Shown here one piece after another: positions 29,169 through 48,740 of a stretch of 64,000 bases of DNA. The stretch covers positions 1 through 64,000 of the forward strand of contig JAIRQO010000039.1 of assembly GCA_031256435.1 (NCBI GenBank). Reading direction: 5' to 3'. This DNA is from Cellulomonadaceae bacterium (lineage in GTDB: Bacteria; Actinomycetota; Actinomycetes; Actinomycetales; Cellulomonadaceae). Made by a program: the position numbers and the translations under genes. How positions within the stretch are numbered: the first letter of the stretch is position 1; the number at the start of each line of letters is the position of its first letter. Below the pieces are notes generated by a model. It was not told the origin of the DNA, did not search any database, and saw only the letters and a list, made by a program, of their open reading frames with translations.

Positions 29169-29306
29169 TCACCTGAAGCAGTTCATACACGCCATGACTT
29201 GAACAGGAGGGGACTCTGGAAGGCCTTCAAGGGTAGGCGGTGATACATAGCCGACGGGAAGAACCAACGCCATAAGTGTGATGACAGCACTGATCTTGGA
29301 GGTCAT
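29169..29306 (-). CDS. Small exported peptide I with C-terminal CxxCF tail (candidate signal)
   Basis: A 45-residue peptide. It begins with Lys and a hydrophobic run (MTSKISAVITLMALVLPVGY) like a signal peptide; the rest is Pro/Glu-rich and ends VQVMACMNCFR. ATG 29306 has AAAGG about 7 bases upstream. It is divergent from the regulator at 29419-30420 with 112 bases between. The same arrangement with a peptide ending CSHCWN occurs at 45611-45742. Shared features are size, hydrophobic N-terminus, a Val-rich stretch before the Cys motif, and a tail CxxC-aromatic-last residue. I infer a secreted, possibly disulfide-bonded signal or antimicrobial peptide. A chance frame is possible but the duplicated architecture argues against it. 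Confidence 0.6.
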   Translation of the reverse strand: MTSKISAVITLMALVLPVGYVSPPTLEGLPESPPVQVMACMNCFR

Positions 29307-29418
29307 GGTGGAACCTTTCACGGAGAGGACATGACACTCTCGATAATTCCGTGGTTTGGATAATTGTGCCTATTCTAGGGATGAGCAATATCGGCATGAC
29401 CGAGACTGGACATCACCA
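29307..29418. promoter_or_regulatory. Divergent promoter region of peptide I and regulator I
   Basis: This 112-base gap contains nested inverted repeats: CACGG (29319-29323) with CCGTG (29349-29353), and GAGAG (29323-29327) with CTCTC (29337-29341). It is AT-rich at 29340-29380, including TATTCT at 29371-29376. The inverted repeats are candidate binding sites for the regulator. The TGGCCA boxes found at other promoters of these loci are absent here. Confidence 0.45.
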
Positions 29419-30420
29419 ATGGAACACGAACCTCGTGAAACACTTCAAGAAGCCACTTCTTCACCGCCTTCGCCAGGTGACGTATATGACGCGATTCTCC
29501 AACTCCAGGTAGGAACAGCACAAAGTATCGCCCAGCACTTGGGCAGCAATGAGGCTATTCAGGTCAAGCAGATGCTCGACGAGTTCGAACGAATGCATCT
29601 CCTCCGTCCTTCGTTAACAACGCCCGGCGCAGTCCGTGCACCCGATCCTGGTGCAATGCTTCTTCGAGCCCTGACTCGATTCACTGACCAACTCCAACGC
29701 GACACGAAGGTCATTGCGGGAGCAACGGAGAGCGTTGTGAGATACGGGATGGGCTTCGATAACTCACATGCCCTCGAAATCGTCATTGGCCATGACGCCA
29801 TTGTCAACCGCATCCCGGGGATCATCATGCGGGCTTCCTCTCGCGTTGACTCGATGTTGCCGACCGTCCCAGATGCGGGGGTTCTCCGCTCCGCACTGGA
29901 AGAGGATCTTGGCGAGGCATCGGCAGACCAGGCGCTCATGCGTGCGATATATCCAGCCGAAGCTCGCCGTCACCATCATGTGATTGAGTATGCAGCCGCA
30001 GTGTCACAGCATGGAGACCAGATTCGCTGTCACACCTTTACTCCGGCTCGGATACTACTCAACGATCAAGGTGAGGCAGTAATCACCGATGGAACACGGA
30101 GCAACACGACGGTGGGGGTCGTGATACGGGAATCGCTCATTGCCAATCTTCTCGCGGATGTCTTTGAAGAGCTCTGGGAACAATCCGATCCCTTAACCGG
30201 GCCTCACGTTGATGGAGGGAATCGTCCGAAAGGTAGAGACCTCAAAGTTCTGAAACTCCTCGCCCGAGGGAAAACCGATGAGGAAGTTGCCCGCCACCTA
30301 GGCATAGCCCCCCGCACCGTCCGCAGGGAGATCGACCGTTTGGAAGAAAGGACCGGAGCGCGATCACGATTGGAACTGGGGGTCCTTGCAGAACGGTACG
30401 GCTGGCTGAATCGCGTATAG
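29419..30420 (+). CDS. Regulator I: winged helix, sensor-like middle and LuxR-type HTH (TrmB/LuxR type)
   Basis: A 333-residue regulator. Residues about 20-65 form a winged helix (GDVYDAILQLQVGTAQSIAQ), followed by a conserved link (RPSLTTPGAVRAPDP), a middle domain (LPTVPDAGVL, RCHTFTPARILLND) like those of TrmB-type sensors, and a LuxR/GerE-type HTH at the end (LKVLKLLARGKTDEEVARHL... RTVRREI). ATG 29419 matches the length of its paralogue (44515-45486, 323 residues); TTG 29356 would extend it by 21 residues. The two share near-identical blocks. It is divergent from a small exported peptide gene, and a possible operator and an operon of exported proteins follow it. Confidence 0.82.
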   Translation: MEHEPRETLQEATSSPPSPGDVYDAILQLQVGTAQSIAQHLGSNEAIQVKQMLDEFERMHLLRPSLTTPGAVRAPDPGAMLLRALTRFTDQLQRDTKVIAGATESVVRYGMGFDNSHALEIVIGHDAIVNRIPGIIMRASSRVDSMLPTVPDAGVLRSALEEDLGEASADQALMRAIYPAEARRHHHVIEYAAAVSQHGDQIRCHTFTPARILLNDQGEAVITDGTRSNTTVGVVIRESLIANLLADVFEELWEQSDPLTGPHVDGGNRPKGRDLKVLKLLARGKTDEEVARHLGIAPRTVRREIDRLEERTGARSRLELGVLAERYGWLNRV

Positions 30421-30456
30421 TCGTGGCCAAATCCGGCATGCCTATACTGGCCACGA
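30421..30456. promoter_or_regulatory. TGGCCA inverted repeat upstream of the I36 operon
   Basis: TCGTGGCCA (30421-30429) and TGGCCACGA (30448-30456) form a perfect 9-base inverted repeat with an 18-base interval that contains GGCATGCC. It starts right after the regulator I stop and lies about 95 bases before the I36 gene. It could be an operator for the downstream operon or a terminator for regulator I. TGGCCA boxes with similar spacing occur at 44440-44470 and 45510-45564. Confidence 0.5.
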
Positions 30457-30548
30457 ATAAAACGATTTTCAATCTTTCGCACACTGTTTAACGCGCGTAC
30501 TGTGTCAAGTGTGGCAAACCCGTCACACCCAACACAAGGACGTGAATC

Positions 30549-30938
30549 ATGACAAGGAAAACACGCACTGCCACTATTCTCATCGCTGGCGCATTGGCCG
30601 TTGGCCTCACGGCTGCACCAGCATCCGCTCTGTGGAGCGATTGCCCATCGGGATATGCCTGTGTGTGGACATCCACCAGTTATCCTGGCAGCCCTAACGC
30701 AAAAACAGCGAGCTTGTCAAACCTCGCTGATGTGAGTAATCGGGGAAATTCGATTGTGAACAATGGAAAGACCTCGGTAGCAAGATACTATGACTTGGCT
30801 GGATGTAGTACCGGTTCCTACATTGTGATGAACAATCCGGCCCGTGGTGGGCAAAGCCGTGATCCCTTACTTTCCAACGGGACTGACGCAACAACGGCGA
30901 ACTGGGCCAACAAGATCTCGTGCGTGAAGTTCTCCTAG
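30549..30938 (+). CDS. Peptidase inhibitor family I36 protein, secreted
   Basis: A 129-residue secreted protein. The signal peptide is basic then hydrophobic and ends with an AxA site (TAAPASA, about residue 27). The mature part begins LWSDCPSGYACVW, the Cys-containing signature of family I36, whose founder (SMPI of Streptomyces) inhibits metalloproteases. Many homologues have not been tested. AAGGACG lies upstream of ATG 30549. It is followed within 16 bases by a lipoprotein gene and then by an adaptor and ABC transporter, so this is the first gene of a four-gene export or envelope operon beside regulator I. Confidence 0.8.
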   Translation: MTRKTRTATILIAGALAVGLTAAPASALWSDCPSGYACVWTSTSYPGSPNAKTASLSNLADVSNRGNSIVNNGKTSVARYYDLAGCSTGSYIVMNNPARGGQSRDPLLSNGTDATTANWANKISCVKFS

Positions 30939-30954
30939 CGGTGAGAACGGAATC

Positions 30955-31839
30955 ATGACTGGTTCGCGTGCCTGGGCACGCGTTGGAATGCTCCTGGCGC
31001 TGTGCATTACCGCGTCAGGATGTGGTGGAAGCACTGTGACCACCCCGCTGACGCCAGCCGAAGTCGCTGAGCGGTACGGGTACAATACCGCCACGTCAAC
31101 CATGACTCCGGCATATGCATTAGTGCCCGAATATCGTAACCCGCTTGACGGCTACGCCCGCGATCTCCTGGCGCGGGAGTGTTTGCAGGGTGTAGTTGAC
31201 TACCAAGTTGTGCGCCCCGTTCCTGGTGACACGGAACTCGAAGAGTTCCGGACGGGTCAGGCGATTTTCAATGAGGGTGTGGCTCTGCGATTCGGTTACC
31301 CAATATTCCGCGCGCCCGCCACGAACGGTCTCGTTGTCGATGAATCGGTCACAATGACTGAGGATATCCTCACTGCAATGAAGGACTGTGGGAAGGCTGC
31401 CGACAAACGTCTCGGTCTCATTCCGGACAACATCCCGTTCCTCATTGAATCCGCAGGATGGGAGGCGGCTGCCACCGATCCATTGGTGATGAGTGCAGCC
31501 AGCGCATGGAAGGCGTGTATGGCTCCGCTTGGCATAGCGGACTTGCCCGAAGTACCTGATCTGATGCCACCACCTTCCATGTTTCCTCGCTGGGCCGTTG
31601 ACGAAGACGGGAATTACCAGGGCTACCTTGATCTCGCTCTGACAGACAAGGAGCGGGATGTTGCCGTTGCGGATGCACGCTGCCGAGGTGAGGCACACTA
31701 CGACGAGGTGAGGTTCAAAGCCCGCGTAGTAGGTGAACTCCAAGCGATAGCTGCTGATCCCGAAGGATTCGAAGCAGCACGTACGGAGTTCGCTGATTAC
31801 TTCCAGGGCATCTCCGAGGTCATTTCAGCATTAGGTTAA
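30955..31839 (+). CDS. Hypothetical lipoprotein of the I36-ABC operon
   Basis: A 294-residue lipoprotein (lipobox ITASGC, Cys23). The mature part contains several Cys (ARECLQG, KDCGKA, WKACMAPLG, DARCRGE) and begins RYGYNT after a short linker. The Cys/Trp pattern, with helices bearing KDCG and WKAC, resembles unnamed actinobacterial surface lipoproteins found beside similar ABC transporters; no function is known. It lies 16 bases after the I36 gene and 43 bases before the adaptor gene. Confidence 0.75.
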   Translation: MTGSRAWARVGMLLALCITASGCGGSTVTTPLTPAEVAERYGYNTATSTMTPAYALVPEYRNPLDGYARDLLARECLQGVVDYQVVRPVPGDTELEEFRTGQAIFNEGVALRFGYPIFRAPATNGLVVDESVTMTEDILTAMKDCGKAADKRLGLIPDNIPFLIESAGWEAAATDPLVMSAASAWKACMAPLGIADLPEVPDLMPPPSMFPRWAVDEDGNYQGYLDLALTDKERDVAVADARCRGEAHYDEVRFKARVVGELQAIAADPEGFEAARTEFADYFQGISEVISALG

Positions 31840-31882
31840 CGCCTGCTGGCTGCTATTCATCATCCACAAAGGAGGCTAAGCG

Positions 31883-33040
31883 ATGAAAAGGATGACACTC
31901 GGTGTGGCCTCATTGTTGATCCTAGCCGCAGTTGCGTGGCTAGTGGCATCGCGAATGGAATCACCAGAGCAGGTATCTGCGCATGCCGAGGCCCCCGTCG
32001 CGGCGCCAATTACGGCTACCGTGATTGAAGGGTACCTGTATGGCAGCATGACGCTTTCGGCGATCGCCTCACCGGAGACCACCCAAAACATCACCGCTCC
32101 CAGTGAGATGGGCGGTGTTGTCACGGCACGGGTTGCACGGCGGGGGCAGGACGTTGGTTCCGGTGATGTCATCCTCCGCGTCAATGGCCGTCCCGTTTTC
32201 ACCCTCGCAGGAGCGTTCCCCATGTACCGGGATATCATGCCTAACGATTCCGGTGATGACGTGGCGGAAGTGCAGAAGGCACTCACCGATGCTGGACTCT
32301 ATGAAGGGCCTGTGGATGGCGAGTTTGGAGAGGTAACCCAACAGGCATTCGTAGCAATGTATAACCGTGCCGGTTACAGGCCCCCGCGAGCACCAGAGGC
32401 ACAACCACCAAGCCAGGACAATCTCGACGGTGAACAGAATGAACGTGAAAATGGGCGGGTAACCCGCCAGGAACCGAAGGACACAACCGGTGGCCCCATG
32501 ATCCTTCGTCAAGAGGTGCTCTTTGTCCCGTCCCTTCCCGCCACTATCTCGTCTATTGCCGATGTCGGGAGCACCGTGACTTCTGACATGCATTTGCTCA
32601 CATTCGCAACGTCGAACACCGTGCTGGAGGCCGTCATTCCGGTTGAGTCGCTCGGTCCCCTGACTGAAGGCGCCATGGGGTCTTTGAAGGACGACGACGG
32701 GAGCGAGGAAGAAGTCAGCCTCGAGTCAATAAACTCTGACGGCCAGGATGCAACACTGCGTTTCCCGGCCAATGAGCACACGTTGACTCAAGGAAACCCC
32801 TACGTCCTGACTTTGACCAACCCCGCGAACGAGCCTGCGCAGAGACTCCTGGTGCCAACCACTTCAGTGACAACGCGCGGTGGACGGTCAGTAGTGTTTG
32901 TGGGACAAGGGCTTTCATTTCATGAAGTAGAGGTGACGATCTCAGGGAGTGTTGGAGGAGTGGTGGCGATATCCCCTGCGAGGCCTGAGGAACTTGCACC
33001 TGGTTTAGCCGTTTTGATAGGTGATCACAGTGGGCACTGA
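31883..33040 (+). CDS. Exported adaptor protein with peptidoglycan-binding domain
   Basis: A 385-residue protein with an N-terminal hydrophobic anchor (MTLGVASLLILAAVAWLVASR). A peptidoglycan-binding type 1 domain (DSGDDVAEVQKALTDAGLY...DGEFGEVTQQAF) is at about residues 115-160; the C-terminal half resembles the beta-barrel parts of MacA/HlyD-type adaptors. AAAGGAGG precedes ATG 31883. The gene overlaps the MacB-like transporter by a few bases, so it is very probably its extracytoplasmic partner, linking it to the cell wall. Confidence 0.82.
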   Translation: MKRMTLGVASLLILAAVAWLVASRMESPEQVSAHAEAPVAAPITATVIEGYLYGSMTLSAIASPETTQNITAPSEMGGVVTARVARRGQDVGSGDVILRVNGRPVFTLAGAFPMYRDIMPNDSGDDVAEVQKALTDAGLYEGPVDGEFGEVTQQAFVAMYNRAGYRPPRAPEAQPPSQDNLDGEQNERENGRVTRQEPKDTTGGPMILRQEVLFVPSLPATISSIADVGSTVTSDMHLLTFATSNTVLEAVIPVESLGPLTEGAMGSLKDDDGSEEEVSLESINSDGQDATLRFPANEHTLTQGNPYVLTLTNPANEPAQRLLVPTTSVTTRGGRSVVFVGQGLSFHEVEVTISGSVGGVVAISPARPEELAPGLAVLIGDHSGH

Positions 33041-34976
33041 CACAGAAGGACCCGTTCTGCCGGTGTTGCACACTCCACCTCTCGTTGAACTCTGTGAGGT
33101 TTCTCGGTCCTATAAGGACACCTTTGCGCTGACCGATGTTAGCCTCACGATTCGTCCAGGGGAGTCCGTGGCGGTTGTGGGACGCTCAGGGTCAGGAAAG
33201 AGCACCCTTCTTAACATCCTTGGCCTTCTGGACGTCCCAAGCAGTGGAACGGTACGAATCGCGGGCTCGGAGATCGTCGAGGACGATGAAAAGACACGGG
33301 TCCACATGCGTGCTGACTACCTAGGATTCATTTTCCAGCGTTCACATTTGATCGGCGGACTCACCGTTGCGGAGAACGTGGAATTAGGGTTGCAGTATTC
33401 GAGAAGTCATCCGGACAATCACGCTGCTGTCAGAGCGCGCGTCATGCAGGCTCTCAGTGATGTAGACCTTGTGCATCGCGCCCAGGCAGATGTCACCACG
33501 CTTTCCGGCGGAGAAATGCAACGGGCAGCTATTGCGAGAACACTGGTGCGTGATACACCATTGTGGTTAGCGGACGAGCCCACAGGTAATCTTGACTCCG
33601 CACAATCGCAGGAAATTATGACCCTCCTGCTGGAACGCGCACAGCAAAACAGTGCGAGCCTGGTAGTGGTGACTCATGAACCCGAAATCGCCGCCCAATG
33701 CAGCAGGCAGGTGATGCTCGCCGACGGACGAGTAGTCTCTGACGAGCGCAAGATATCTCCGGTCATGGATGCCGCCACGTGGGCAAGCCCTGCCTGTTCC
33801 AATGTTCCCCCAGTGGGTGTGATACGAACTTGGTGGACGGCCTGGGTTCGTCTGACGAGGTTCATTTCCCAAGGTCTGCGCGCGCAACGTCAGCGAACCT
33901 GGGCTGGTGTGCTGGCATGCACCTTCGCCGTAGCGCTCACTGTCACCGCTATGGGACTGTCACAAAGCGCATCGAGCCAAGTCTCAACAATCTTCGATGC
34001 TCGACGCGCATCACAAGTTTCGGCCACCTTGACACGTGATTCCGGGGAACCCCGCTGGGGGCTCAACGCGTCAGCGGTTCGAGAGTATGCCGGAGTCCGA
34101 GCCGTCGAATTCTGGAGCCAATGGCAGGCGGTATCTATACGGAATGGAGAAGCTAGTGAAACCACAGCAGAGCTAAACGCCATGGAGATGACTCCCGGAC
34201 CGGGTTCGGATGCGCATATCACCTGGTTGAATCCAGATCGACGAGTCCTTGGTGAAGGTGACGTTGTGTTAGGCCAATCTCTCGCCGCTCGTCTTGCACT
34301 CCCCTCACTGTCCACCTCTCCCGAGGTGATCGTCCACGGTACCCGGTTGCGTGTGGCCGGGATACTCACCGAAGCCAGGCCAGGCACTGCAGTGGGGGCG
34401 GCTTTCGTGACACCAGAAAGCGTCGAGAATCTCCCGTCGCCGCGGACCGTCATGATATATGCCAAGACCAACCCCGGAGCCGCACGACAACTTGCCGATC
34501 ACCTGGATTCCCTGGCAAATCCGTTCGGCGAGTACCGGATCATGGTAGATCCCGTATTACAAGCGGACGCATTCCGTGGACAACTCCAGGAATCGGTCTC
34601 AGTATCCCTCACCGTTCTTGCAGTTGTAGCAGCGCTTGCGGGACTCGTGATCGTGGTGATGGTCACGGTCCTCGGTGTCACGAGGCGGATCCCCGAGTTT
34701 GGACTCAGGCGGGCACTGGGTTCCTCCCGCTTCGGCGTGGCGGGACTCGTCATGGGTGAGTGCATTGTCCAAGGAACAATAGGTTCATCACTCGGCACGG
34801 TAGTGGGTTTCATCGCCATCATGACGGTCACCGCTTTTGCTCGCTGGCAACCGGTCTTTGATACGCGTTTACTCGCCATACCTATGATAGCCAGTGCGGT
34901 ATTTGGGTTGGGTGCTGCCGTAGTTCCTGCAATCCTGGCTGGACGGATCCAACCCGCTGATGCCGTTCGAGGATAG
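33030..34976 (+). CDS. MacB-type ABC transporter (ATPase fused to FtsX-like permease)
   Basis: A 648-residue fusion. The N-terminal ATPase has Walker A GRSGSGKST (about 53-61), signature LSGGEMQRAAIARTL and Walker B LWLADEPTGNLDS; the C-terminal half has four membrane helices with a large outer domain after the first, as in MacB. MacB proteins move peptides or drugs across the envelope by mechanotransmission with an adaptor. GTG 33030 (AGGTGAT upstream) is favoured over GTG 33021; both overlap the adaptor gene. The substrate is unknown, but the neighbouring exported peptide is a candidate. Confidence 0.88.
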   Translation: MGTDTEGPVLPVLHTPPLVELCEVSRSYKDTFALTDVSLTIRPGESVAVVGRSGSGKSTLLNILGLLDVPSSGTVRIAGSEIVEDDEKTRVHMRADYLGFIFQRSHLIGGLTVAENVELGLQYSRSHPDNHAAVRARVMQALSDVDLVHRAQADVTTLSGGEMQRAAIARTLVRDTPLWLADEPTGNLDSAQSQEIMTLLLERAQQNSASLVVVTHEPEIAAQCSRQVMLADGRVVSDERKISPVMDAATWASPACSNVPPVGVIRTWWTAWVRLTRFISQGLRAQRQRTWAGVLACTFAVALTVTAMGLSQSASSQVSTIFDARRASQVSATLTRDSGEPRWGLNASAVREYAGVRAVEFWSQWQAVSIRNGEASETTAELNAMEMTPGPGSDAHITWLNPDRRVLGEGDVVLGQSLAARLALPSLSTSPEVIVHGTRLRVAGILTEARPGTAVGAAFVTPESVENLPSPRTVMIYAKTNPGAARQLADHLDSLANPFGEYRIMVDPVLQADAFRGQLQESVSVSLTVLAVVAALAGLVIVVMVTVLGVTRRIPEFGLRRALGSSRFGVAGLVMGECIVQGTIGSSLGTVVGFIAIMTVTAFARWQPVFDTRLLAIPMIASAVFGLGAAVVPAILAGRIQPADAVRG

Positions 34977-40256: not shown

Positions 40257-40453
40257 CCCCGTAAAGTTTCCACGCATCGCTCGGAATACTTTACGGGGGC
40301 CCCGGAGTAGAGCCAGGCGCACCAGCGCCGACGGTCGAAACCCCCACCGGACCCATTGCCGTCCCCGCAATGTTTCCACGCATCGCTTGGAATACTTCAC
40401 GAGGGCCCGGTTGGGTGGTTGAGCCAGGCGCACCAGCGCCGACGGTCGAAACC
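40257..40453. repeat. Family C and B hairpins after ppdK
   Basis: Family C copies at 40257-40304 (CCGTAAAGT/ACTTTACGG arms) and 40363-40408 alternate with family B copies on the minus strand at 40310-40342 and 40417-40453 (GGTTGAGCC...GGTCGAAACC). The C-B pair is thus tandemly duplicated with about 106-base period. The 536-base gap up to the surface protein gene has no other gene. Confidence 0.75.
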
Positions 40454-40615
40454 CCCACCGGGCCCTTTGCCGTCCCCGGCCAACTCACCCGCAATTCCGA
40501 AGCACAACGGCGATTCCTGCGTGCATTAGTACATCCTTGCTCGGTTAGTGCCGCAGTCCATCGTCGAATATTGCACTGATCGACGAAACTTGCACTAACC
40601 CACCAGCCAGACACC
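40405..40615. repeat. Long direct repeat, left copy (flanks surface protein gene)
   Basis: This 211-base segment recurs at 43631-43898 in the same orientation with few mismatches and one internal duplication. It includes a family B hairpin, CCGAAGCACAACGGCGATTC and an inverted element (40543-40600) with outer arms GGTTAGTGC/GCACTAACC and inner arms CGTCGA/TCGACG. Confidence 0.85.
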
Positions 40616-40756: not shown

Positions 40757-43579
40757 ATGGATACGCGCGCTCACGTCAGCCACCCTCGCTCTGGGATGAG
40801 GTGTTCTAGTCACCACCCGAGTTCCCTGGATGAGAGTGCTCTGTACCTAGCCACTCAACACCCAGCCACGCAGCACCCAAGCGCACGACGCCACGTTCGC
40901 GTGGGCGTCATGGCGGGGATAGTGGCTACGGTAGTATTATTGGGCGGCCTGTTTGCCACCATGGCAACCACGTCTGCGTGGGCTGGAACCACCCCTGCCA
41001 ACGGCATAGCCGTTCAACCCCTCCCGGCAGGCGCTCTACGTCAGGTACCTGCATCGCTGCCCAGCCCTGCACCCACGCCATCTACGTGGCACTTCCGGGT
41101 TGATCGCGAGGACGGCAGTTCCACAGGTGGACTTCTCAACTCAGGCACCTACGCCAACTTCACCGACATCTGGGATACCTTGCAAGCCGGAGATAAGGTC
41201 ACCCTCCTTAGAGACATCAACTTCACCGGACCCATCTCCCTGACCAACCAGGGCGCCATCACCCTCAACACCAACGGGTACACGTTAAACCTCACGTCTA
41301 GCGGTGACACGCTCACCGTTTCCGAGAACTCGCAACTTACCGTAACGGGAACGGGAGCGGTGAATGTTTCCACTACGGGCACTGGGGCGGGCGTGGCTGC
41401 GGTCAGAGTCAGATCTCGCGGCGTGGTGACCGGCATTCACAATGTGACTGCACCAGATGGCGCATCGGGCGCTTGGGCCCTTCACGCTGAGGGCGCCCAG
41501 TCCGGCGTGAGCATCAACGGCAATGTGACCTCGGGATACTCCGTACACGCCAACACGGGAGCAACGGTGACGGTGGCCGGTTCCACCAGTACGTACTTTG
41601 GGCTGGACTCCAACGCTGGCACCATCATGGCCGGAGCGGTCACCGCCACCGTGCGTGGTCTGTATGCGGTAGCCGGTGCCACCGTGACCGCAGGACAGGT
41701 CACGCTTGGCTCACAATCCCAGGACGGGGAGGCGGGCCAGTTCTATGTATCCAACTCCCAGGTGACAGCCCAGGCCATCACCGTGACCGGTGCCTGTGAT
41801 GTCCTCGTGCATGACAAGGGGTCCCTCACGGTCACCGGCGCCATCACCGGAGCCCGCATCATAGACGTAGCTCCCAAGGCAGTACTGAAAGCCGGGTCCA
41901 TCTCTGGCGTGCATGAGCTTATTGTTGAGGATGCCACGGTCAATGTTCAGGGAAATGTGGCCTTTGCCCAGAGCGGCGCGTCGAGTGCTTCCAACCCAGC
42001 GCCTTGCGATCATAGCGCTACCAACCCATTGCTGTGCGCTGAAAGTTCCGCCAAGGTGTCCATTGGGGGTTCGGTCTCCTTCCCTCGCGCTGGGGACGTA
42101 ACTGCCAACACTGGGGCAAGCCTTGCCGTGGGCAAAGATCTCTCCTGGCAGGTAGGCACTCTGGATGTGTCAGACCCCGGGACCACCCTCTCCATCAAGG
42201 GTGTCTACAGGTCCACCGGAACGTCCTCGGGTAGCCACAGTTCCGTGATATACGTTGACCAGGGCGCCGTAGTAACACTTGGCTCCGCCTCAATTGTCCA
42301 TGGCGTGATGGCTGCCTCCCGTGCCGCCCAGATCACCGTCAACGCGAACGCTGCCTTCACCGGCAGTGGAACCCTGCTGGCTCAGCAGGGTTCAGTGATG
42401 GTTCAGGGAAATGTAGATCTGGCCTCGTGCAAGGCTGATAGCGAGTCTGCGCCCATGGTATGCGCCGTTGCCATGAACGGGCACATCACCGTGAACGGGA
42501 ATTTCACGGCACGCCAATCAGGACTCCTCTGGGCGTTTGACCCTACTCCACTATTTAGTGCCAGCGCCATCATGAACAGTCAACAGATTCCCCAGGGCGG
42601 GACCATCACCGTCTCCGGCCACACTTCATTGCCGGGTACCACGTGGTTAGGACTTGGACTCAACACGGCTGGGGTGCCCATGTTGAAGCCAGCCACCGTC
42701 AAGTCAGTGACGCAGATGGCTTCCAGCACTACCAAGGCTGGCTACCTCACCTACGCCCAGGGCGGCTCCTCCATCTGGATTCGCCCCTTCCCGGTCACCG
42801 TGAACACACCGCGCATCCCTACCGCTATTTCCGTGGGACAGAAAGTGTCTGTGGCGTCCGGCACCTGGCCGGTGGGGACCAAACTCACCTATCAATGGTT
42901 GCGCGGCACCACCCCAATAGGCACCAACGCTGCCAGTTACACCCCCGTGGCCGCCGATGTAGGAAAGGTGCTCAGTGTCAAGGTCTCTGCGGTCACTCCC
43001 CCTCACCACGTGGCAGTCCAACCCCGTGTCTCCAACACAGTTACCGTGGCAAAAAGTCCGAGCCCCAGCGCACCCGTGGCGCCAGCAGTGACCGCCAAGA
43101 CATCCACGTCTGTCACGCTGAAAGCTAACGCTCGCCATGAGTTTTCCAAGGATGGGGTCACGTGGCAAAGGTCTGGTACCTTCACTCGTTTAGCGCCGGG
43201 AACACGCTACTCGTTCCACCAACGTGTGAAGGAAACGGCATCCACCCACGCCTCTGCTAAGAGCACCAAACGGACGGTTACCACCACACCTGGAACGTTC
43301 TCCCAGGGTAGGGTTTCTCTGTCCGGCACGGCAGGAGTAGGGAAGAAACTCACCGCCCAGGTGGCAACCACCACCCGACCTTCGGCCACCCGGTATCGCT
43401 ATCAGTGGTACCGCTCTGGCAAGAGCGGCGCAGTGAAAACAGTGGTGACTACAGCAAAGAAGAGTTACTACACTCTGGTCAAGGCTGACGTGGGAAAGAA
43501 GATCACCGTCAAGGTGACCGCCATAAGGACTGGTTACACCTCCAAGACTTTCACAAAAACAACGGCCCGAATCTCCTAG
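40757..43579 (+). CDS. Large secreted surface protein with beta-helix-like and Ig-like repeats
   Basis: A 940-residue exported protein. A hydrophobic segment (GVMAGIVATVVLLGGLFATM) about 50 residues in acts as signal or anchor. From about 100 to 680 there are short beta-strand repeats rich in Thr, Val, Gly and Ser (LTVTGTGAVNVSTTG), likely a right-handed beta-helix. The C-terminal part has two or three repeats of a domain with TYQWLRGTTPIG and ADVGKVLSVKV, common in actinobacterial surface proteins. There is no LPxTG-type anchor. AAGGGAG precedes ATG 40757. An adhesin role is inferred. It is flanked by direct repeats (40405-40615 and 43631-43898) that could delete it by recombination. Confidence 0.82.
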   Translation: MDTRAHVSHPRSGMRCSSHHPSSLDESALYLATQHPATQHPSARRHVRVGVMAGIVATVVLLGGLFATMATTSAWAGTTPANGIAVQPLPAGALRQVPASLPSPAPTPSTWHFRVDREDGSSTGGLLNSGTYANFTDIWDTLQAGDKVTLLRDINFTGPISLTNQGAITLNTNGYTLNLTSSGDTLTVSENSQLTVTGTGAVNVSTTGTGAGVAAVRVRSRGVVTGIHNVTAPDGASGAWALHAEGAQSGVSINGNVTSGYSVHANTGATVTVAGSTSTYFGLDSNAGTIMAGAVTATVRGLYAVAGATVTAGQVTLGSQSQDGEAGQFYVSNSQVTAQAITVTGACDVLVHDKGSLTVTGAITGARIIDVAPKAVLKAGSISGVHELIVEDATVNVQGNVAFAQSGASSASNPAPCDHSATNPLLCAESSAKVSIGGSVSFPRAGDVTANTGASLAVGKDLSWQVGTLDVSDPGTTLSIKGVYRSTGTSSGSHSSVIYVDQGAVVTLGSASIVHGVMAASRAAQITVNANAAFTGSGTLLAQQGSVMVQGNVDLASCKADSESAPMVCAVAMNGHITVNGNFTARQSGLLWAFDPTPLFSASAIMNSQQIPQGGTITVSGHTSLPGTTWLGLGLNTAGVPMLKPATVKSVTQMASSTTKAGYLTYAQGGSSIWIRPFPVTVNTPRIPTAISVGQKVSVASGTWPVGTKLTYQWLRGTTPIGTNAASYTPVAADVGKVLSVKVSAVTPPHHVAVQPRVSNTVTVAKSPSPSAPVAPAVTAKTSTSVTLKANARHEFSKDGVTWQRSGTFTRLAPGTRYSFHQRVKETASTHASAKSTKRTVTTTPGTFSQGRVSLSGTAGVGKKLTAQVATTTRPSATRYRYQWYRSGKSGAVKTVVTTAKKSYYTLVKADVGKKITVKVTAIRTGYTSKTFTKTTARIS

Positions 43580-43630: not shown

Positions 43631-43898
43631 CCCGGTTGGGCGGTTGAGTCAGGCGCACCAGCGCCGACGGTCGAAACCCCCACCGGGCCCTTTGCCGTCC
43701 CCGCGATGCCCGCAACTCCGAAGCACAACGGCGATTCCTGCGCCCCACCAGCCCACAAACCAGCAACCCGCCCGCAATTCCGAAGCACAACGGCGCTCCC
43801 TGCGTGCGGCAGTACATCCTTGCTCGGTTAGGGCCGCAGTCCATCGTCGAATATTGCACTGATCGACGAAACTTGCACTAACCCACCAGCCAGACACC
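43631..43898. repeat. Long direct repeat, right copy (flanks surface protein gene)
   Basis: Counterpart of 40405-40615. It differs by scattered substitutions (for example GGTTAGGGC instead of GGTTAGTGC at 43826) and an extra 57 bases where the CCGAAGCACAACGGCG segment is duplicated. It fills most of the 333-base gap between the surface protein and the membrane protein gene at 43913. Confidence 0.85.
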
Positions 43899-43912: not shown

Positions 43913-44320
43913 TTACTCCTTCAGGCGTAACAGACTAACGGTTCCTGCCAGCGCCGTCACCAGCGCAACGAGTGAGCTTCTCGCCCCAGAGGCAATGAAC
44001 TCACCCAGGCTCGGCAGCGAATCGCTGGGGATGGTGAACCGCGCTACAGCGCCGTGCGTTGCCACCATGCCTACAACAATGAGCACCATGCTGGTCACCG
44101 CCGCAATGGCCAGTACCTGCGGGAAGCGGTAGGCCAGATATCCCACGGCAGCACCCACAATAAGGGCCGCGAGCACCCGAGCAACGGCACCGCCCGTCAG
44201 TTCACGCGAAGCGGTGGGCATCACCTGCGGATCAAACACCGCAAGGCCAGAAAACACCGTCACACCAGCAACAATGCCACCAAAGACAGACTTCCCAGTG
44301 ACGTCTTTCAACAGTTCCAT
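43913..44320 (-). CDS. Small multi-span membrane protein
   Basis: A 135-residue protein with about four membrane helices (SVFGGIVAGVTVFSGLAVF; VARVLAALIVGAAVGYLAY; VLAIAAVTSMVLIVVGMVAT; SLVALVTALAGTVSLL) and a Lys/Glu end. No family is recognised. ATG 44320 is better spaced from AAGGGAG than ATG 44326. TGGCCA boxes lie about 120-150 bases upstream, just beyond the regulator II gene, so it may belong to that regulon. Confidence 0.7.
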   Translation of the reverse strand: MELLKDVTGKSVFGGIVAGVTVFSGLAVFDPQVMPTASRELTGGAVARVLAALIVGAAVGYLAYRFPQVLAIAAVTSMVLIVVGMVATHGAVARFTIPSDSLPSLGEFIASGARSSLVALVTALAGTVSLLRLKE

Positions 44321-44439
44321 GATCATTCTCCCTTCGAGATAGCGGACCCTCAGGTGCCGCAAGTGTAGGTCAGTGCCTTACTGAAGTGACGGTACGCTGG
44401 TTATCCACGGCGGGAAACCCTGAAAATCGGTTTCATACG

Positions 44440-44470
44440 TGGCCAAAAGAGGCATGGCCGCAGGTGGCCA
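44440..44470. promoter_or_regulatory. TGGCCA boxes upstream of the membrane protein gene
   Basis: TGGCCA at 44440-44445 and 44465-44470 (25 bases apart), with TGGCCG between them at 44455-44460. They lie in the gap between the end of regulator II and the start of the 43913-44320 gene. The spacing is like that at 30424-30453 and 45510-45541, so these may be regulator binding sites. A DnaA-like TTATCCACG is at 44401-44409. Confidence 0.45.
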
Positions 44471-44514
44471 GGTGACACCAACTAGGATGGACGACGATGC
44501 GTTCGGAGGTGTTA

Positions 44515-45486
44515 TCAGGGGTGCGGGAGCCAGCCAAGGCGTTCGGCCCGGACCGCAAGTTCGAAGAGCGATCTTGCTCCGCAGCGGTCCGAGAGGTCAG
44601 CGATGATGCGCCGTAAGGTGCGCTTACTCAGCCCGGTGGCATGGCTAATGCCGTCATAGGTGTCGCCCATGGAAAACCTCTGGAGTACGTGCGCCTCCCT
44701 GGGGGTCAGAACCCCGGTCTCTCCTTCGCGTGGTAGCGGTTGAGCACCATCCCACACGTGGTTGAACAGTGAAGCCAGGAGATCCACGATGATGGGATTT
44801 GTCACGTGGACTGCCGTGGGGCTTTCATGCTGATAGGAATCGACGATGATTGCCTCACCTCGGTCCGTCATGATGATTCTGGCAGGCGTAAACACGTGGG
44901 TTCGGATCTCCGCATCGTACGCAGATGTTGCTTGCGAGTAGCGGTGTACCTGAGGGGCTTCTGCGGCATCGGCGGGATAAATGGACAACTGTTGGAGTCC
45001 GCGTTCCAGCATAGGAATGTCCTCTGAGACGGCCGAAGCCAGTACCTCTGCTGTGGGAACGGTAGGGAGAACGTTGTGGACGAACATGCGTGCTCGAGCG
45101 GTCAGCCCCGCTATGGCGCTGATGATGGAATCACGCCCAACAAGGTGTTCCACATTGGGACTTTGGAGGTGGTGACCGCTCGCGGGATTCAGCTGCGCTA
45201 CCGCCTCAGTCAGCACCGATGCATCATTCTGAAGCCTGGCAATGACAGCGGTAAGCGCCCGGATGAACGTGGCCTCAGGATCCGGAGCCCGCACTGCTCC
45301 CGGCTGAGTCAACGAGGGCCGAACGAGGCCAAGCTCAAGCAATCCATCAACAATCGTCGCCATGTCCGTTGGCTCAACTGACCGATACTGCTCAGTCAAC
45401 TCCGGGACGCTGACGGAATTCGCTCCAAGAATCGCTTTGTAGACTGCTCCGGCCGATACGTGCGTTCCCTCATGCTCGTCTCCCAT
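44515..45486 (-). CDS. Regulator II: winged helix, sensor-like middle and LuxR-type HTH
   Basis: A 323-residue paralogue of regulator I (29419-30420). Shared blocks include RPSLTQPGAVRAPDP, VLPTVPTAEVL, IYPADA and RTHVFTPARIIMTD. The C-terminal LuxR-type HTH is LTPREAHVLQRFSMGDTYDG...SKRTLRRIIADL. The start ATG 45486 is preceded by TAGGGT (complement of 45493-45498) with a 6-base gap, suggesting a leaderless mRNA. It is divergent from the small exported peptide II gene, with 124 bases between that carry TGGCCA-type boxes. The ligand is unknown; I infer that the peptide or an envelope signal controls it. Confidence 0.82.
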   Translation of the reverse strand: MGDEHEGTHVSAGAVYKAILGANSVSVPELTEQYRSVEPTDMATIVDGLLELGLVRPSLTQPGAVRAPDPEATFIRALTAVIARLQNDASVLTEAVAQLNPASGHHLQSPNVEHLVGRDSIISAIAGLTARARMFVHNVLPTVPTAEVLASAVSEDIPMLERGLQQLSIYPADAAEAPQVHRYSQATSAYDAEIRTHVFTPARIIMTDRGEAIIVDSYQHESPTAVHVTNPIIVDLLASLFNHVWDGAQPLPREGETGVLTPREAHVLQRFSMGDTYDGISHATGLSKRTLRRIIADLSDRCGARSLFELAVRAERLGWLPHP

Positions 45487-45610
45487 CCCTCCACCCTACC
45501 CACGGCGCGTGGCCACTTGCGGCCACGGCCTCAGGTGGCCGCCGAAATCTCTGGACATTGGCCGTGACGTGGGTCACAGTTATTGAGCGGTTCGAACAAA
45601 GGAGATCACC
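45487..45610. promoter_or_regulatory. Divergent promoter region with TGGCCA-type boxes
   Basis: TGGCCA at 45510-45515, CGGCCA at 45520-45525, TGGCCG at 45536-45541 and TGGCCG at 45559-45564. The first two make a GTGGCCACTTGCGGCCAC pattern. The region lies between regulator II and peptide II, so autoregulation and control of the peptide operon are plausible. Confidence 0.5.
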
Positions 45611-45742
45611 GTGCGCAAAGCCATCGCCCTCATCCTCGCAGCCCTCGCCATCATTGCCGGAGGTGCGGCAGCATCACCACACACCACCCCACCCCATCAC
45701 ACCGTGGTAGAAGCCTGCCACTGCAGCCACTGCTGGAACTAG
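45611..45742 (+). CDS. Small exported peptide II with C-terminal CxCxxCWN tail (candidate signal)
   Basis: A 43-residue peptide starting with GTG 45611, with an excellent AAAGGAGAT ribosome binding site. A signal peptide (MRKAIALILAALAIIAGGAA, cleavage likely after the Ala run near residue 21) precedes a His/Pro/Thr segment and the tail VVEACHCSHCWN. The stop lies 16 bases before the YiiX-like gene, so it is the first gene of a three-gene operon, divergent from regulator II. The matching layout at 29169-30420, with a tail MACMNCFR, supports a real paralogous peptide family. A secreted signal or metal- or redox-sensitive peptide is possible; the Cys/His cluster could bind metal. Confidence 0.7.
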   Translation: MRKAIALILAALAIIAGGAAASPHTTPPHHTVVEACHCSHCWN

Positions 45743-45758
45743 AATCAAGGAGAAAGAC

Positions 45759-46556
45759 ATGTTGCCGTTCAGGGAACACTCATTGCACATTGCCGTTGGT
45801 GAAACCAGCCCACGGAGAATGACCATTATTCGCGGGTGGGTTGCGGTGGTCACCGCTGGCATGTTGATCACGTCCACGGGTCCCGCTTTCGCCTCTAGTG
45901 GAAGCGCACGCATTGACGATGGATTTGAGGCAGCGCTCATTGTTCTGTTGGATCGAAATCCAGGGACAACGCGAGATGAAATGATTGAGGCAGCCACCGT
46001 TGTGGCTACCGAAAGCGGTCAGGTGATGAGAGAAGTCATTGTGGCAGCGGCGCGAGAAGCAGAGGCTCAGGAACTTCCCGAGGGAGGCGATGGAACACGC
46101 CTTGGTGTTGGAGCGGATATTGTTATTCCTGCGAGTAATTTCAAGGGGGATGTTTTCTATAGCCCAGTATCAACACTTGGTGTCACCCATGGCCACTCGG
46201 GCATTTTCTCGACGCTGCAGACAATAGTTGAGGCACCTGGTCCCGGGAAGCAGGTTCGGAATACGAACCGTAGCAATGTCAAGGTTGCATCGGGATCCCA
46301 CCAGCAGGTGGTGAACACTACTCAGGCTAAGCGCGATAAGGCAGTGACCAAAGCACTAACCTTTGTGGGGCGTGCGTACAACTTGAATTTTGCATTCAAC
46401 AAAACTGCCAATGGTGCGATGAACTGTTCACAGGTAGTGTGGGTAGCGTATAAAGATGGCTCCGGAATTGACCTTGATGCCAACGGAGGAAACGGTGTTT
46501 ACCCGATTGACATCAAGAACTCATCACACACCTCAACCTATCGAATTGTGAAGTAG
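45759..46556 (+). CDS. YiiX-like NlpC/P60-superfamily exported hydrolase
   Basis: A 265-residue exported protein. The signal region is late (WVAVVTAGMLITSTGPAFA, residues 27-45). The C-terminal part has the order of a permuted papain-like NlpC/P60 domain: GDVFYSP then THGHSGIF (His144/His146), and later NGAMNCSQVVWVAY (Cys223) with GIDLDANGG. Members of this superfamily hydrolyse peptidoglycan peptides, amides or lipids; the substrate is unknown. AAGGAG lies 6 bases before ATG 45759. It is translated from the same mRNA as peptide II and the next lipoprotein. Confidence 0.78.
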   Translation: MLPFREHSLHIAVGETSPRRMTIIRGWVAVVTAGMLITSTGPAFASSGSARIDDGFEAALIVLLDRNPGTTRDEMIEAATVVATESGQVMREVIVAAAREAEAQELPEGGDGTRLGVGADIVIPASNFKGDVFYSPVSTLGVTHGHSGIFSTLQTIVEAPGPGKQVRNTNRSNVKVASGSHQQVVNTTQAKRDKAVTKALTFVGRAYNLNFAFNKTANGAMNCSQVVWVAYKDGSGIDLDANGGNGVYPIDIKNSSHTSTYRIVK

Positions 46557-46565
46557 GGCAACCCC

Positions 46566-47909
46566 ATGTTCAATGTCACAACGAGCGTATCCACGAGTCA
46601 GCGCGGGTACGCTCGTGTGCGTTGGTGGCATGCCGTCACTGGAGCAGTGGCCATTGCTCTCCCCCTCAGTGGATGTGCCGCTCATGGACGGAACACGGTA
46701 TCTCAATTGCAAGAGGTGGATTGGGAATCCGTTGTTGCCGTGGCGGTGATGGCTCCTCAGGCGTCGACCAACTGGCTCGGTGGCGGAGGCCAGGTAACAG
46801 TAATGAATCGCGACGGCTCTACGGCGGTAGTTTCCATGTCCGCGATGGACGTGGGAGCGGCATCGTGGACAAATCACGGCCTGATCTTCTCTGACCAGCA
46901 CCATGATTACCTTATTGAGGGAGACGGGTCCGTCAGCGCGTTTGAGTCATTAAAACCTGACTACCAGGATGGCCTGGTTTCCCTCGATAACGGCACACGT
47001 GTGGGCTTCTTCAACGGTGGTTACGCCGATGACGGCTCCTACGATGAGGTGGTCACCACCATTGATCACTCGGGTTCCACGCAGCACAGGTCAACGGAAT
47101 GGTCACAGGTCTTTGCCGCGTGCGGAAACTCCGCCTACGGAATAGCGCAAATTATCCCCGAGGGAAGCCCTCAACACACCACGTTGTCAATGCGCATCCT
47201 ACTCAGTGACGGCAAACCGGCAGACCGCGGCATCGCCACCCACACGTCGGCCTTTTCTGAGACGGCTTTTGCTGCACCCGCCGTCCCATGTCTCGACGAT
47301 GAAATCGTGTTCATCTCCTCACAAGATGTAGCAACAGGATCACTGAACAGAGTGCCTGCCACGGATTCTCCTTATCGAGACCCTGACTCGGGTTTTGAAT
47401 GCCAACTCGTCAATGACGGATATGGCCATCTCAGTTGCCCTACGGTAGAACGGTGGAACGTGAGAACGGGACAACGACTGATTGTGCCCATCCAAACCAC
47501 GGGCGTCCCCGGTGTTGACTGGTCTGAGAACTCTGCATACTTGGCTCGTTATGATCAGAACTCCCTGGTGGAAGGATTCCTGTACTGGCTCCATCCCAGT
47601 GGGGTTCTCCTGCAAACAGACATTTCCAATGGGCACACTGCAACGTTGGCAACCTTGCCGGGAACGGAATTGAACCTAGGTGACTTCCTCACGGGCAACG
47701 TTGACTACCTGGTGGATATCCAAGATTCAGTGATGTCAGTGCTCCGCTTCAGCCCCAATGGCAAGGGCACGTTCCCCACCGAAATCCTGAGCTACGCGAT
47801 CCCTGACGGCGCTCTCGTTTCCCGCACCGAATTTCCCGAATTCCTTCGCGATAATAGTGCGAACTACATTGTCCGAAGCATCGCCGTCAACCCAACTTTG
47901 ACCCTGTAA
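46566..47909 (+). CDS. Lipoprotein of the peptide II operon, beta-propeller-like
   Basis: A 447-residue lipoprotein (lipobox LPLSGC, Cys37). The mature part has repeating short strands with Trp/Asp turns (SWTNHGLIFSDQHHDYLIEGDGS; NGGYADDGSYDEVV) that could form a beta-propeller, with no named family. It starts 9 bases after the YiiX-like gene. A CTGTAACGA/TCGTTACAG hairpin overlaps its stop codon and ends the operon. Codon use resembles that of the preceding accessory genes. Confidence 0.75.
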   Translation: MFNVTTSVSTSQRGYARVRWWHAVTGAVAIALPLSGCAAHGRNTVSQLQEVDWESVVAVAVMAPQASTNWLGGGGQVTVMNRDGSTAVVSMSAMDVGAASWTNHGLIFSDQHHDYLIEGDGSVSAFESLKPDYQDGLVSLDNGTRVGFFNGGYADDGSYDEVVTTIDHSGSTQHRSTEWSQVFAACGNSAYGIAQIIPEGSPQHTTLSMRILLSDGKPADRGIATHTSAFSETAFAAPAVPCLDDEIVFISSQDVATGSLNRVPATDSPYRDPDSGFECQLVNDGYGHLSCPTVERWNVRTGQRLIVPIQTTGVPGVDWSENSAYLARYDQNSLVEGFLYWLHPSGVLLQTDISNGHTATLATLPGTELNLGDFLTGNVDYLVDIQDSVMSVLRFSPNGKGTFPTEILSYAIPDGALVSRTEFPEFLRDNSANYIVRSIAVNPTLTL

Positions 47910-48075: not shown

Positions 48076-48321
48076 ATGAGCCAGATGACCCTCAAGAAAT
48101 CAGTCACCATTCCGGAAGATGTGTTCCGCGAAACCCAAAGCTTCAATCCGAACTTGTCCGAGTACACCACCAGGGCGCTGCGTAATCAGATTGAGCAGGA
48201 CAAACTTGCCACCCTCGTCGAATATCACGAAAGCAAATACGGCCCCGTTTCTGACGATGTGATGGCGCGCGTGATTGCTGATCGTCATGCGGCTGACCGA
48301 ATGGTTGGCTTCGTTCGGTGA
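48076..48321 (+). CDS. Antitoxin (VapB-like)
   Basis: An 81-residue protein. The N-terminus (MTLKKSVTIPEDVFRETQ) is like ribbon-helix-helix DNA-binding antitoxins; the C-terminal half is charged and helical, as expected for toxin binding. Its stop overlaps the GTG start of the PIN-domain gene (GTGA), the normal coupled order of VapBC pairs. Autoregulation through the tandem TAGGAT region is likely but inferred. Confidence 0.82.
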   Translation: MSQMTLKKSVTIPEDVFRETQSFNPNLSEYTTRALRNQIEQDKLATLVEYHESKYGPVSDDVMARVIADRHAADRMVGFVR

Positions 48322-48740
48322 CGCGACGCAGAGTCCCGCGAGACCATGCGGCTCGCGTGGTGGTTTTTGATTGCCAGGCGCTCGCAAGGGCAGTGACGGG
48401 CGACGAGTACCTCCGGGGCGTGATCCGGTTGGCAAAGCAGGAGAACTCTCCCGTTGTGGTCTCGGTAGCCACCATGGTGGAGGTGATCCACCCCAGGATT
48501 GACACTCGCGAGTTACGGTACGTACTCTCGCTCATCAGGCTGGTTGACGTGACAGCCGATATTGCCCGGAGTGCGAGTGAGTTGCTCAGCGCCGCAGGTC
48601 TACACGGCCACACGCATGCGCTCGATTCCTTTGTTTGTGCCACCGCCTTGGCGTCACAGGGTCACCCGACGATTTACACCTCGGATCTAGGTGATGTGCA
48701 GCGCCTCGTGGGCAACCGCGCCTCCGTGATCCGGGTGTAA
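48318..48740 (+). CDS. PIN-domain toxin (VapC-like)
   Basis: A 140-residue protein with PIN-domain acidic residues: VVVFDCQALARAV near the N-terminus, MVEVIHP in the middle, HALDSFVCATAL and YTSDLGDVQRL towards the end. PIN toxins are magnesium-dependent RNases that cut tRNA or rRNA. The start is GTG 48318. It is translationally coupled to the antitoxin. Confidence 0.85.
   Translation: MTRRRVPRDHAARVVVFDCQALARAVTGDEYLRGVIRLAKQENSPVVVSVATMVEVIHPRIDTRELRYVLSLIRLVDVTADIARSASELLSAAGLHGHTHALDSFVCATALASQGHPTIYTSDLGDVQRLVGNRASVIRV

Follow-up and report, generated by a model that had tools for sequence, protein, structure and literature searches.

A secreted-type CxxC peptide gene beside a TrmB-PLD-LuxR regulator: a candidate peptide signalling pair in Actinomycetota

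The peptide gene and its divergent regulator

The stretch of DNA considered here, referred to as the window, comprises the first 64,000 nucleotides of contig JAIRQO010000039.1 from the genome assembly GCA_031256435.1 of a Cellulomonadaceae bacterium (Actinomycetota). It contains two loci, I and II, at which a gene for a small secreted-type peptide adjoins the gene for a soluble DNA-binding regulator. The locus II pair probably constitutes a one-component pheromone system, with the secreted CxxC peptide as signal and the regulator as receptor. The peptide gene of locus II (45611-45742, + strand) is an open reading frame (ORF) of 43 amino acids with a GTG start, preceded by the ribosome binding site AAAGGAGA at 45598-45605. 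Its product reads MRKAIALILAALAIIAGGAAA/SPHTTPPHHTVVEACHCSHCWN, the slash marking the presumed cleavage point. The N-terminus, with basic residues, a hydrophobic core and an AAA cleavage zone, resembles a signal peptide (residues 1-21, AAA/S; 45611-45673, + strand; hydrophobic-window score 3.2); here and below, the cleavage zones of peptides were judged by eye, without a signal-peptide predictor. The predicted exported tail ends in EACHCSHCWN, with three Cys and several His, and includes a CxxC motif (Cys38-Ser-His-Cys41; 45722-45733, + strand) identified in the alignment of CxxC peptides. The peptide matches no NCBIfam family and matches Pfam at chance level only. A first, sequence-only reading of this DNA had described a 43-codon GTG gene with a good ribosome binding site, a signal-peptide-like start and this tail, with a divergent regulator 124 bases away. 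Each of these features is present, and the divergent intergenic region (45487-45610) measures exactly 124 bp, with TGGCC-type inverted repeats at 45511-45540.

The divergent regulator (44515-45486, - strand; 323 amino acids) comprises a TrmB-like winged helix-turn-helix (HTH), an effector domain of the phospholipase D (PLD) fold at about residues 109-255, and a LuxR/GerE-type HTH at 257-323, as assigned from sequence-profile and fold matches. The regulator profile matches TrmBL2 across positions 8-259 (E 1.2e-8), and Foldseek and VIA-align matches, including one to the TrmB sugar-binding domain, give a TrmB-type winged helix followed by a PLD-fold domain. The C-terminal GerE-type HTH scores 30.7 bits against PF00196 in the regulator of locus I (cut-off 23.5) and 21.3 bits, just under the cut-off, in that of locus II; among LuxR-type HTH chains the profile matched 7x1k best (E 3.5e-10), with GerE itself (1fse) at 1.3e-8. 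The PLD catalytic pattern is missing from 135 of 137 regulators of this kind, and the PLD-fold domain is therefore taken to serve binding rather than catalysis. A Pfam scan of both window regulators found no tetratricopeptide repeat (TPR) family and no acyl-homoserine lactone (AHL)-binding, receiver or ATPase domain; as the middle domain has the PLD fold, an AHL-type or TPR receptor was dropped as a candidate.

Related pairs and their motifs

The sequence-only reading had counted two such modules. The source genome (2.5 Mb in 88 contigs) holds 11 full-length regulators instead, counting that of locus II, with which the remaining ten share 25-38% identity. The regulator of locus I is a paralogue, as had been proposed (38% identity over 314 amino acids, E 3e-60). 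In six of the 11 cases a small secreted-type ORF ending in a CxxC tail lies no more than 900 bp away, and the tails all differ. Eight CxxC-tailed peptides lie near regulators: ...EACHCSHCWN at locus II, ...VMACMNCFR at locus I, and six others ending in ...EIQCIHCKPQPK, ...EIQCMHCKPQPK (a twin of ...EIQCIHCKPQPK), ...EVLCGHCGFSRR, ...QILCVNCPDRN, ...EVVCYTCRPIPT and ...VIPQCWNCPGIQ. The peptide ending in ...CGHCGFSRR lies 2.3 kb from a regulator (L006), the sole one of this kind on that contig. Scanning the 64-kb window for CxxC-tailed ORFs with a hydrophobic start returned four matches, two of which are the peptides of loci I and II; with like peptides also standing beside homologous regulators elsewhere, the pairing exceeds chance.

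Pairs of this kind recur in several families. Within the genus, tails of paired peptides read ...TCADCWEYV (L014), ...ACHYCPPRQ (L015), ...QCIDCWQPQW (L019) and ...SCVHCWNPNV (L059). In Isoptericola, another genus of the family, they read ...QCVACWPTAD, ...MCVTCWPTSK and ...MCVACWPTSK (L080, L082, L083); two of these loci come from metagenome-assembled genomes, and the third regulator belongs to Isoptericola variabilis. A further family contributes the tail ...VPCIGCW (L116). Among 16 aligned peptides, selected for having CxxC, the motif is followed by Trp in eight and by Phe in one. The three Isoptericola peptide genes show fewer nonsynonymous (dN) than synonymous (dS) changes in all three comparisons (0.20-0.33 vs. 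0.48-0.70 over 41-44 codons), and third positions hold the largest share of the changes; this fits a coding gene, the comparisons being small and not independent. The sequence-only reading had made the Cys/His-rich end the feature of the tail. The CxxC is conserved, while His is not conserved across the aligned peptides, and most relatives with a DxxW motif (described below) lack CxxC, so that a metal-binding Cys/His tail was rejected as the defining feature. The CxxC tail may bind metal, form a disulfide or be modified. A role of the tail in sensing metal or redox state outside the cell, as the CxxC with its three Cys and several His at locus II could suggest, is scarcely credible when homologous regulators are paired with DxxW peptides and the His residues vary.

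With the 11 regulators as queries, a protein search yielded 19 sequences at E 0.001, among them several LuxR-type regulators of the ordinary kind; whole genomes were therefore searched instead. By a profile of the sensor part (A2), 50 of 221 family genomes and 155 of 345 genomes sampled from the class contain relatives, the source genome being in both sets. In Streptomyces-like genomes the regulators adjoin small secreted-type ORFs with D-x-x-W motifs, which are often repeated: DSGWG three times in L154, DSGW[DN] five times in L187, and DTGWT (L161), DLPWT (L173), DMGWQ (L111), DPQWE (L086) and DTSWG (L151) twice each. For one DxxW peptide type a protein search gave 75 homologues, from Streptomyces wherever the name shows an organism, annotated as hypothetical or uncharacterised proteins and once as 'Secreted protein'. 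These carry one to six DxxW motifs per precursor (at least two in 62 of the 75), and Asp occupies position -3 of 198 of their 205 Trp residues, which gives them the look of a multi-copy pheromone precursor. One peptide (L186) joins DSSW and CxxC (DSSWGCGGCVR) and two others (L162, L176) have DSSW with CxxxC; all three are convergent to the regulator and may link the two types. At two loci of two Streptomyces-like genomes (L198, 2351-5341; L199, 8243-11380) a DSGW peptide and its regulator lie, with names assigned by eye, between grpE/dnaJ/hspR-like genes and a clpB-like gene, apparently a heat-shock neighbourhood. The Streptomyces coelicolor locus tags SCO3663-SCO3666 may denote the regulators found here near hspR-like and clpB-like genes. 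In the available text of the respective papers, SCO3665 (327 amino acids) and SCO3666 are LuxR regulators (PMC3282765) and SCO3664 is a regulator gene, a 'downmodulator' of actinorhodin (PMC6585502).

The association of motif and regulator was measured with a fixed rule (25-100 amino acids, hydrophobic start, basic residue near the start, ribosome site of at least 4/6, within 900 bp) run on 146 distinct regulators in four zones of about equal size; these regulators, six of them weak profile matches, are the best-matching places from the searches and not a random sample. CxxC tails numbered nine in the upstream divergent zone, none upstream on the same strand, two downstream convergent and one downstream on the same strand; the corresponding counts for DxxW were 12, 1, 15 and 1. 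For two further Cys spacings and for the seven motifs that served as controls (HxxH/CxxH, WxxD, DxxF, DxxxW, DxW, ExxW, RxxW) the counts were 0-2 per zone; the control counts exclude peptides carrying a main motif. In a tree of 137 regulators, which has weak forks and long branches, 13 of the 14 CxxC-labelled rows fall into one group of 20 and the DxxW rows into two other groups, with two changes between the labels among labelled rows. Labels were set partly by hand (six W-tail variants and L186 as DxxW, L059 as CxxC, the candidates of L113 dropped as spurious), and only divergent and convergent places were counted, except for L013, L044 and L143. By the fixed rule, 35 of 92 regulators in the three peptide-bearing clades have a CxxC or DxxW peptide (the hit of L113, taken as spurious, included) and 8 of 92 have an ORF with any of six control motifs. 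In the fourth clade both counts are 0 of 40; the remaining five of the 137 rows lie outside the four clades and have no peptide. Fisher's test gives p 3e-7, a value that ignores relatedness and the drawing of clades after the labels had been seen. The fourth clade shares the TrmB-PLD-LuxR architecture and probably has another ligand; the peptide therefore goes with particular receptor lineages.

These counts bear on the idea that the regulator, as archaeal TrmB does, responds to a sugar or another small molecule, with the small ORFs unrelated or spurious. The fold match to the TrmB sugar-binding domain, the 40 peptide-less rows and the presence of spurious hits of the rule, such as L113, are all consistent with such sensing. 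It is nevertheless very improbable, as the enrichment is specific to motif and position with control motifs near zero, the Streptomyces peptide homologues are annotated proteins in many strains, and dN lies below dS. No sugar transporter was found among the neighbouring genes scanned.

Neighbouring genes and candidate operators

The sequence-only reading had placed the locus II peptide first in an operon with a YiiX-like enzyme and a lipoprotein. The next genes on the + strand do lie behind it: a secreted protein of 265 amino acids (45759-46556, + strand), which starts 16 bases after the peptide gene as the second gene of the presumed operon, and a lipoprotein-like protein of 447 amino acids with the lipobox-like LPLSGC (46566-47909, + strand) and no family above cut-off. 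The YiiX/YaeF-like assignment of the former (Peptidase_C92, permuted NlpC/P60) is less firm, the match reaching 25.2 bits, just below the Pfam cut-off of 27; by eye, HGHSGIF and NCSQVVW would supply the Cys and His of a permuted NlpC/P60 enzyme. At locus I the peptide gene found in the CxxC scan (29169-29306, - strand; 45 amino acids, tail VQVMACMNCFR) adjoins the paralogous regulator, recognised by sequence comparison (29356-30420, + strand; likely start 29419). Behind the regulator, family scans point to a cassette (30549-34976, + strand) for an Inhibitor_I36-like secreted protein, a lipoprotein-like protein of 294 amino acids, a peptidoglycan-binding/membrane-fusion-like protein of 385 and a MacB-like ATP-binding cassette (ABC) transporter of 648. 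The transporter scores 189.2 bits against TIGR03608, a model of putative bacteriocin exporters, below the cut-off of 254.85. No match to the lactococcin 972 family was found in locus I, where the secreted protein matches Inhibitor_I36, and membership of locus I in the lactococcin 972 type is thus unsupported.

Related genes recur at paralogous loci. L042 and L045 have membrane-fusion, ATPase and permease genes related to the transporter genes of locus I, two lipoprotein families are shared by L041/L045 and L042/L046, and at L041 and L042 the CxxC peptide gene comes first, ahead of genes for a secreted protein and a lipoprotein. Associations of this kind, with secreted small proteins, lipoproteins and ABC transporters at locus I and its paralogues and the sub-threshold resemblance to TIGR03608, would be expected if the peptide were the regulated product, a secreted antibacterial or surface peptide, and the regulator answered another cue. 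The order of genes at L041 and L042 likewise favours a product, as does a locus of another family (L202, 6043-7986) at which a CxxC peptide (...VPCIGCW) is followed after 16 bases, on the same strand and as judged by eye, by ABC ATPase-like and permease-like genes. Five DxxW loci (L198, L199, L200, L208, L209) lack an export cassette directly beside the pair, as seen by eye and without a family scan; an ABC transporter does lie about 5 kb off at L208, and at L198 and L200 a small gene follows the peptide directly. A short motif present in up to six copies is more to be expected of a signal precursor than of a toxin, and peptide type tracks regulator clade. The regulated product is accordingly considered unlikely, while being the chief rival of the pheromone reading.

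A second possibility is that the peptide acts on the regulator inside the cell or while held in the membrane, before or instead of export, and so reports the state of secretion or of the envelope. The short, signal-anchor-like N-termini and the envelope-type genes adjoining several pairs are compatible with this. Many of the peptides, however, have AxA-like cleavage zones, and the motifs lie in the predicted exported part (both judged by eye); these two points make such an action improbable.

A 21-bp pattern, CGTGGCCAAA-N3-GGCATG-N-C, is found directly behind both window regulators and ahead of the next genes, and was written from these two sites themselves. The candidate operator 3' of regulator II (CGTGGCCAAA-N3-GGCATG...TGGCCA, 44438-44473) is followed by a small membrane-protein-like gene without a family above cut-off (43913-44326, - strand), and that 3' of regulator I contains the palindrome CGTGGCCAAATCCGGCATGCCTATACTGGCCACG (30422-30455). 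With up to three mismatches the pattern has four matches in the genome, against 0.38 expected. Its core TGGCCA-N5-GGCATG has six exact genome matches, three of which fall on the two window sites, the one at locus I being counted on both strands; with up to one mismatch there are 77 matches, compared with 18 for the reversed control, and the core alone is therefore unspecific.

Several other properties of these regions were observed. Third-position GC is 0.52-0.66 in the genes of 43913-47909 and 29419-34976 of the window, compared with 0.70-0.79 in many other genes compared, which suggests acquisition of both loci from outside. Toxin-antitoxin-type genes (PIN, PemK/MazF, FitA-like, Phd-like) occur near several regulator loci (window 48076-48740; L041, 2932-3279; L044, 3138-3485; L004, 598-1325; L007, 2653-3335), as if these loci were mobile or hypervariable islands; the pair in the window and the Phd-like gene match below cut-off. 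Two very similar stretches of the window (40291-40614 and 43649-43897), with - strand ORFs starting MSGWWVSASFVDQCNIRRWTAALTEQGC, form a direct repeat flanking a gene (40757-43579) for a 940-amino acid protein with immunoglobulin-like domains.

Proposed mechanism and comparison with known systems

The adjacent precursor gene, the several tails per genome and the brevity and occasional repetition of the motifs suggest one-component signalling by peptides. In such a system the peptide would be exported by the Sec route, its signal sequence removed and the tail trimmed or oxidised. The tail would probably be taken up again by an oligopeptide permease, comparable to BldK with BLD261 in Streptomyces; two SBP_bac_5 oligopeptide-binding proteins in the source genome fit the oligopeptide import that this step would need. 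Inside the cell the tail would bind the soluble regulator at its PLD-fold middle domain. With its TrmB-like and LuxR-like DNA-binding ends the regulator would then switch the operon of the peptide itself, together with neighbouring genes that encode secreted proteins, lipoproteins and ABC transporters. The sequence-only reading had also suggested a family of cognate peptide-receptor pairs. Comparison supports, and considerably extends, the idea of a family of pairs with differing peptides and neighbour genes, and their stable pairing suggests that each regulator may recognise its own peptide. A broader proposal, for which the chances appear evenly balanced, is a pheromone system widespread in Actinomycetota, in which Sec-secreted precursors with CxxC(W) or repeated DxxW motifs are re-imported to TrmB-PLD-LuxR receptors through many private channels per genome, with BLD261-type signals as possible members.

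A number of observations weigh against the pheromone reading. Five of the 11 regulators of the source genome have no CxxC peptide within 900 bp; none was found at L002, L004 and L008 in the stretches read, nor within 900 bp of L007. Across the wider set, 92 of 140 regulators are without a labelled peptide, and the fourth clade (42 rows as a tree group, 40 in the clade count) makes plain that this architecture can function in the absence of a peptide. ORFs that look secreted, with any tail, occur at 39, 21, 33 and 23 of the 146 regulators in the four zones, in the order given above; the case therefore rests on the motifs, and a secretion-type start alone means little. The layout of the pairs varies among divergent, convergent and same-strand, only the regulators, and no alignable sequence, connect CxxC with DxxW peptides, and the ribosome site of the locus I peptide is weak, with 3/6 matches only. 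The candidate operator is present at two of the 11 regulators, with none beside the other nine and one loose match about 3 kb off in L046. SBP_bac_5 is a common family, with members in 11 of 14 control genomes, and the TrmB fold is one known to bind sugars.

According to the available text of a 2023 survey (PMC10075063), Actinomycetota typically signal with enzyme-made small molecules, and gene-encoded oligopeptides are the mode of Bacillota; that of a 2016 review names cyclic or modified peptides for Actinomycetota as well (PMC4748050). The accessible parts of the quorum-sensing reviews and survey PMC13220807, PMC4748050 and PMC10075063 name no actinomycetotal system such as the one proposed here, and no description of the pairing of such a peptide with such a receptor was found among the papers listed by aimed searches of the open PMC literature, a scope outside which preprints and most subscription papers lie. 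The novelty would lie in a receptor unrelated to those of known peptide signalling and in the motifs of the signals. If the proposal is correct, the phylum to which the main antibiotic producers belong communicates by gene-encoded peptides over many private channels, with a receptor fold known from sugar binding. The signals are short enough to be synthesised and the pairs are recognisable by motif, which makes directly testable which peptides Streptomyces senses.

Lactococcin 972-type loci share with locus I a secreted small protein, a MacB-like ABC transporter and the resemblance to TIGR03608; they differ in that this resemblance stays below the curated cut-off here and that the secreted protein is Inhibitor_I36-like. 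With LuxR/GerE-type actinobacterial regulators the present ones have the C-terminal HTH in common, but they carry an N-terminal TrmB-like part, and no AHL-binding, receiver or ATPase domain was matched in the scan of the window regulators. The BLD261-BldK system of Streptomyces coelicolor is similar in that a permease of SBP_bac_5 type takes up an extracellular oligopeptide signal (PMC11303876); the available text of that paper names neither the precursor gene of BLD261 nor its intracellular receptor. A DxxW peptide behind BLD261 is a lead only. Winged helix, coiled coil and PLD-fold effector domain are shared with TrmB/TrmBL2, whereas the additional C-terminal LuxR/GerE-type HTH and the adjacent secreted-type peptide are peculiar to the regulators described here; archaeal TrmB carries a sugar-binding domain, as the title of structure 2f5t states. 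The RRNPP systems of Bacillota (Rgg-SHP, PlcR-PapR, Rap-Phr and relatives) resemble the present pairs in that a small pro-peptide gene, of exported type here to judge from the N-terminus, adjoins a soluble one-component regulator. In RRNPP systems, too, one genome may have several paralogous pairs that differ in their peptides, and the signal is a short C-terminal piece. They differ from the actinomycetotal pairs in the receptor, which here is built of a TrmB-like winged HTH, a PLD-fold domain and a LuxR-type HTH in place of a TPR domain, and in the CxxC(W) or repeated DxxW motifs of the peptides. As a TPR receptor is the defining feature of RRNPP in the available text of the 2023 survey (PMC10075063), the locus II pair is therefore not regarded as a member, although a similar manner of working is proposed for it.
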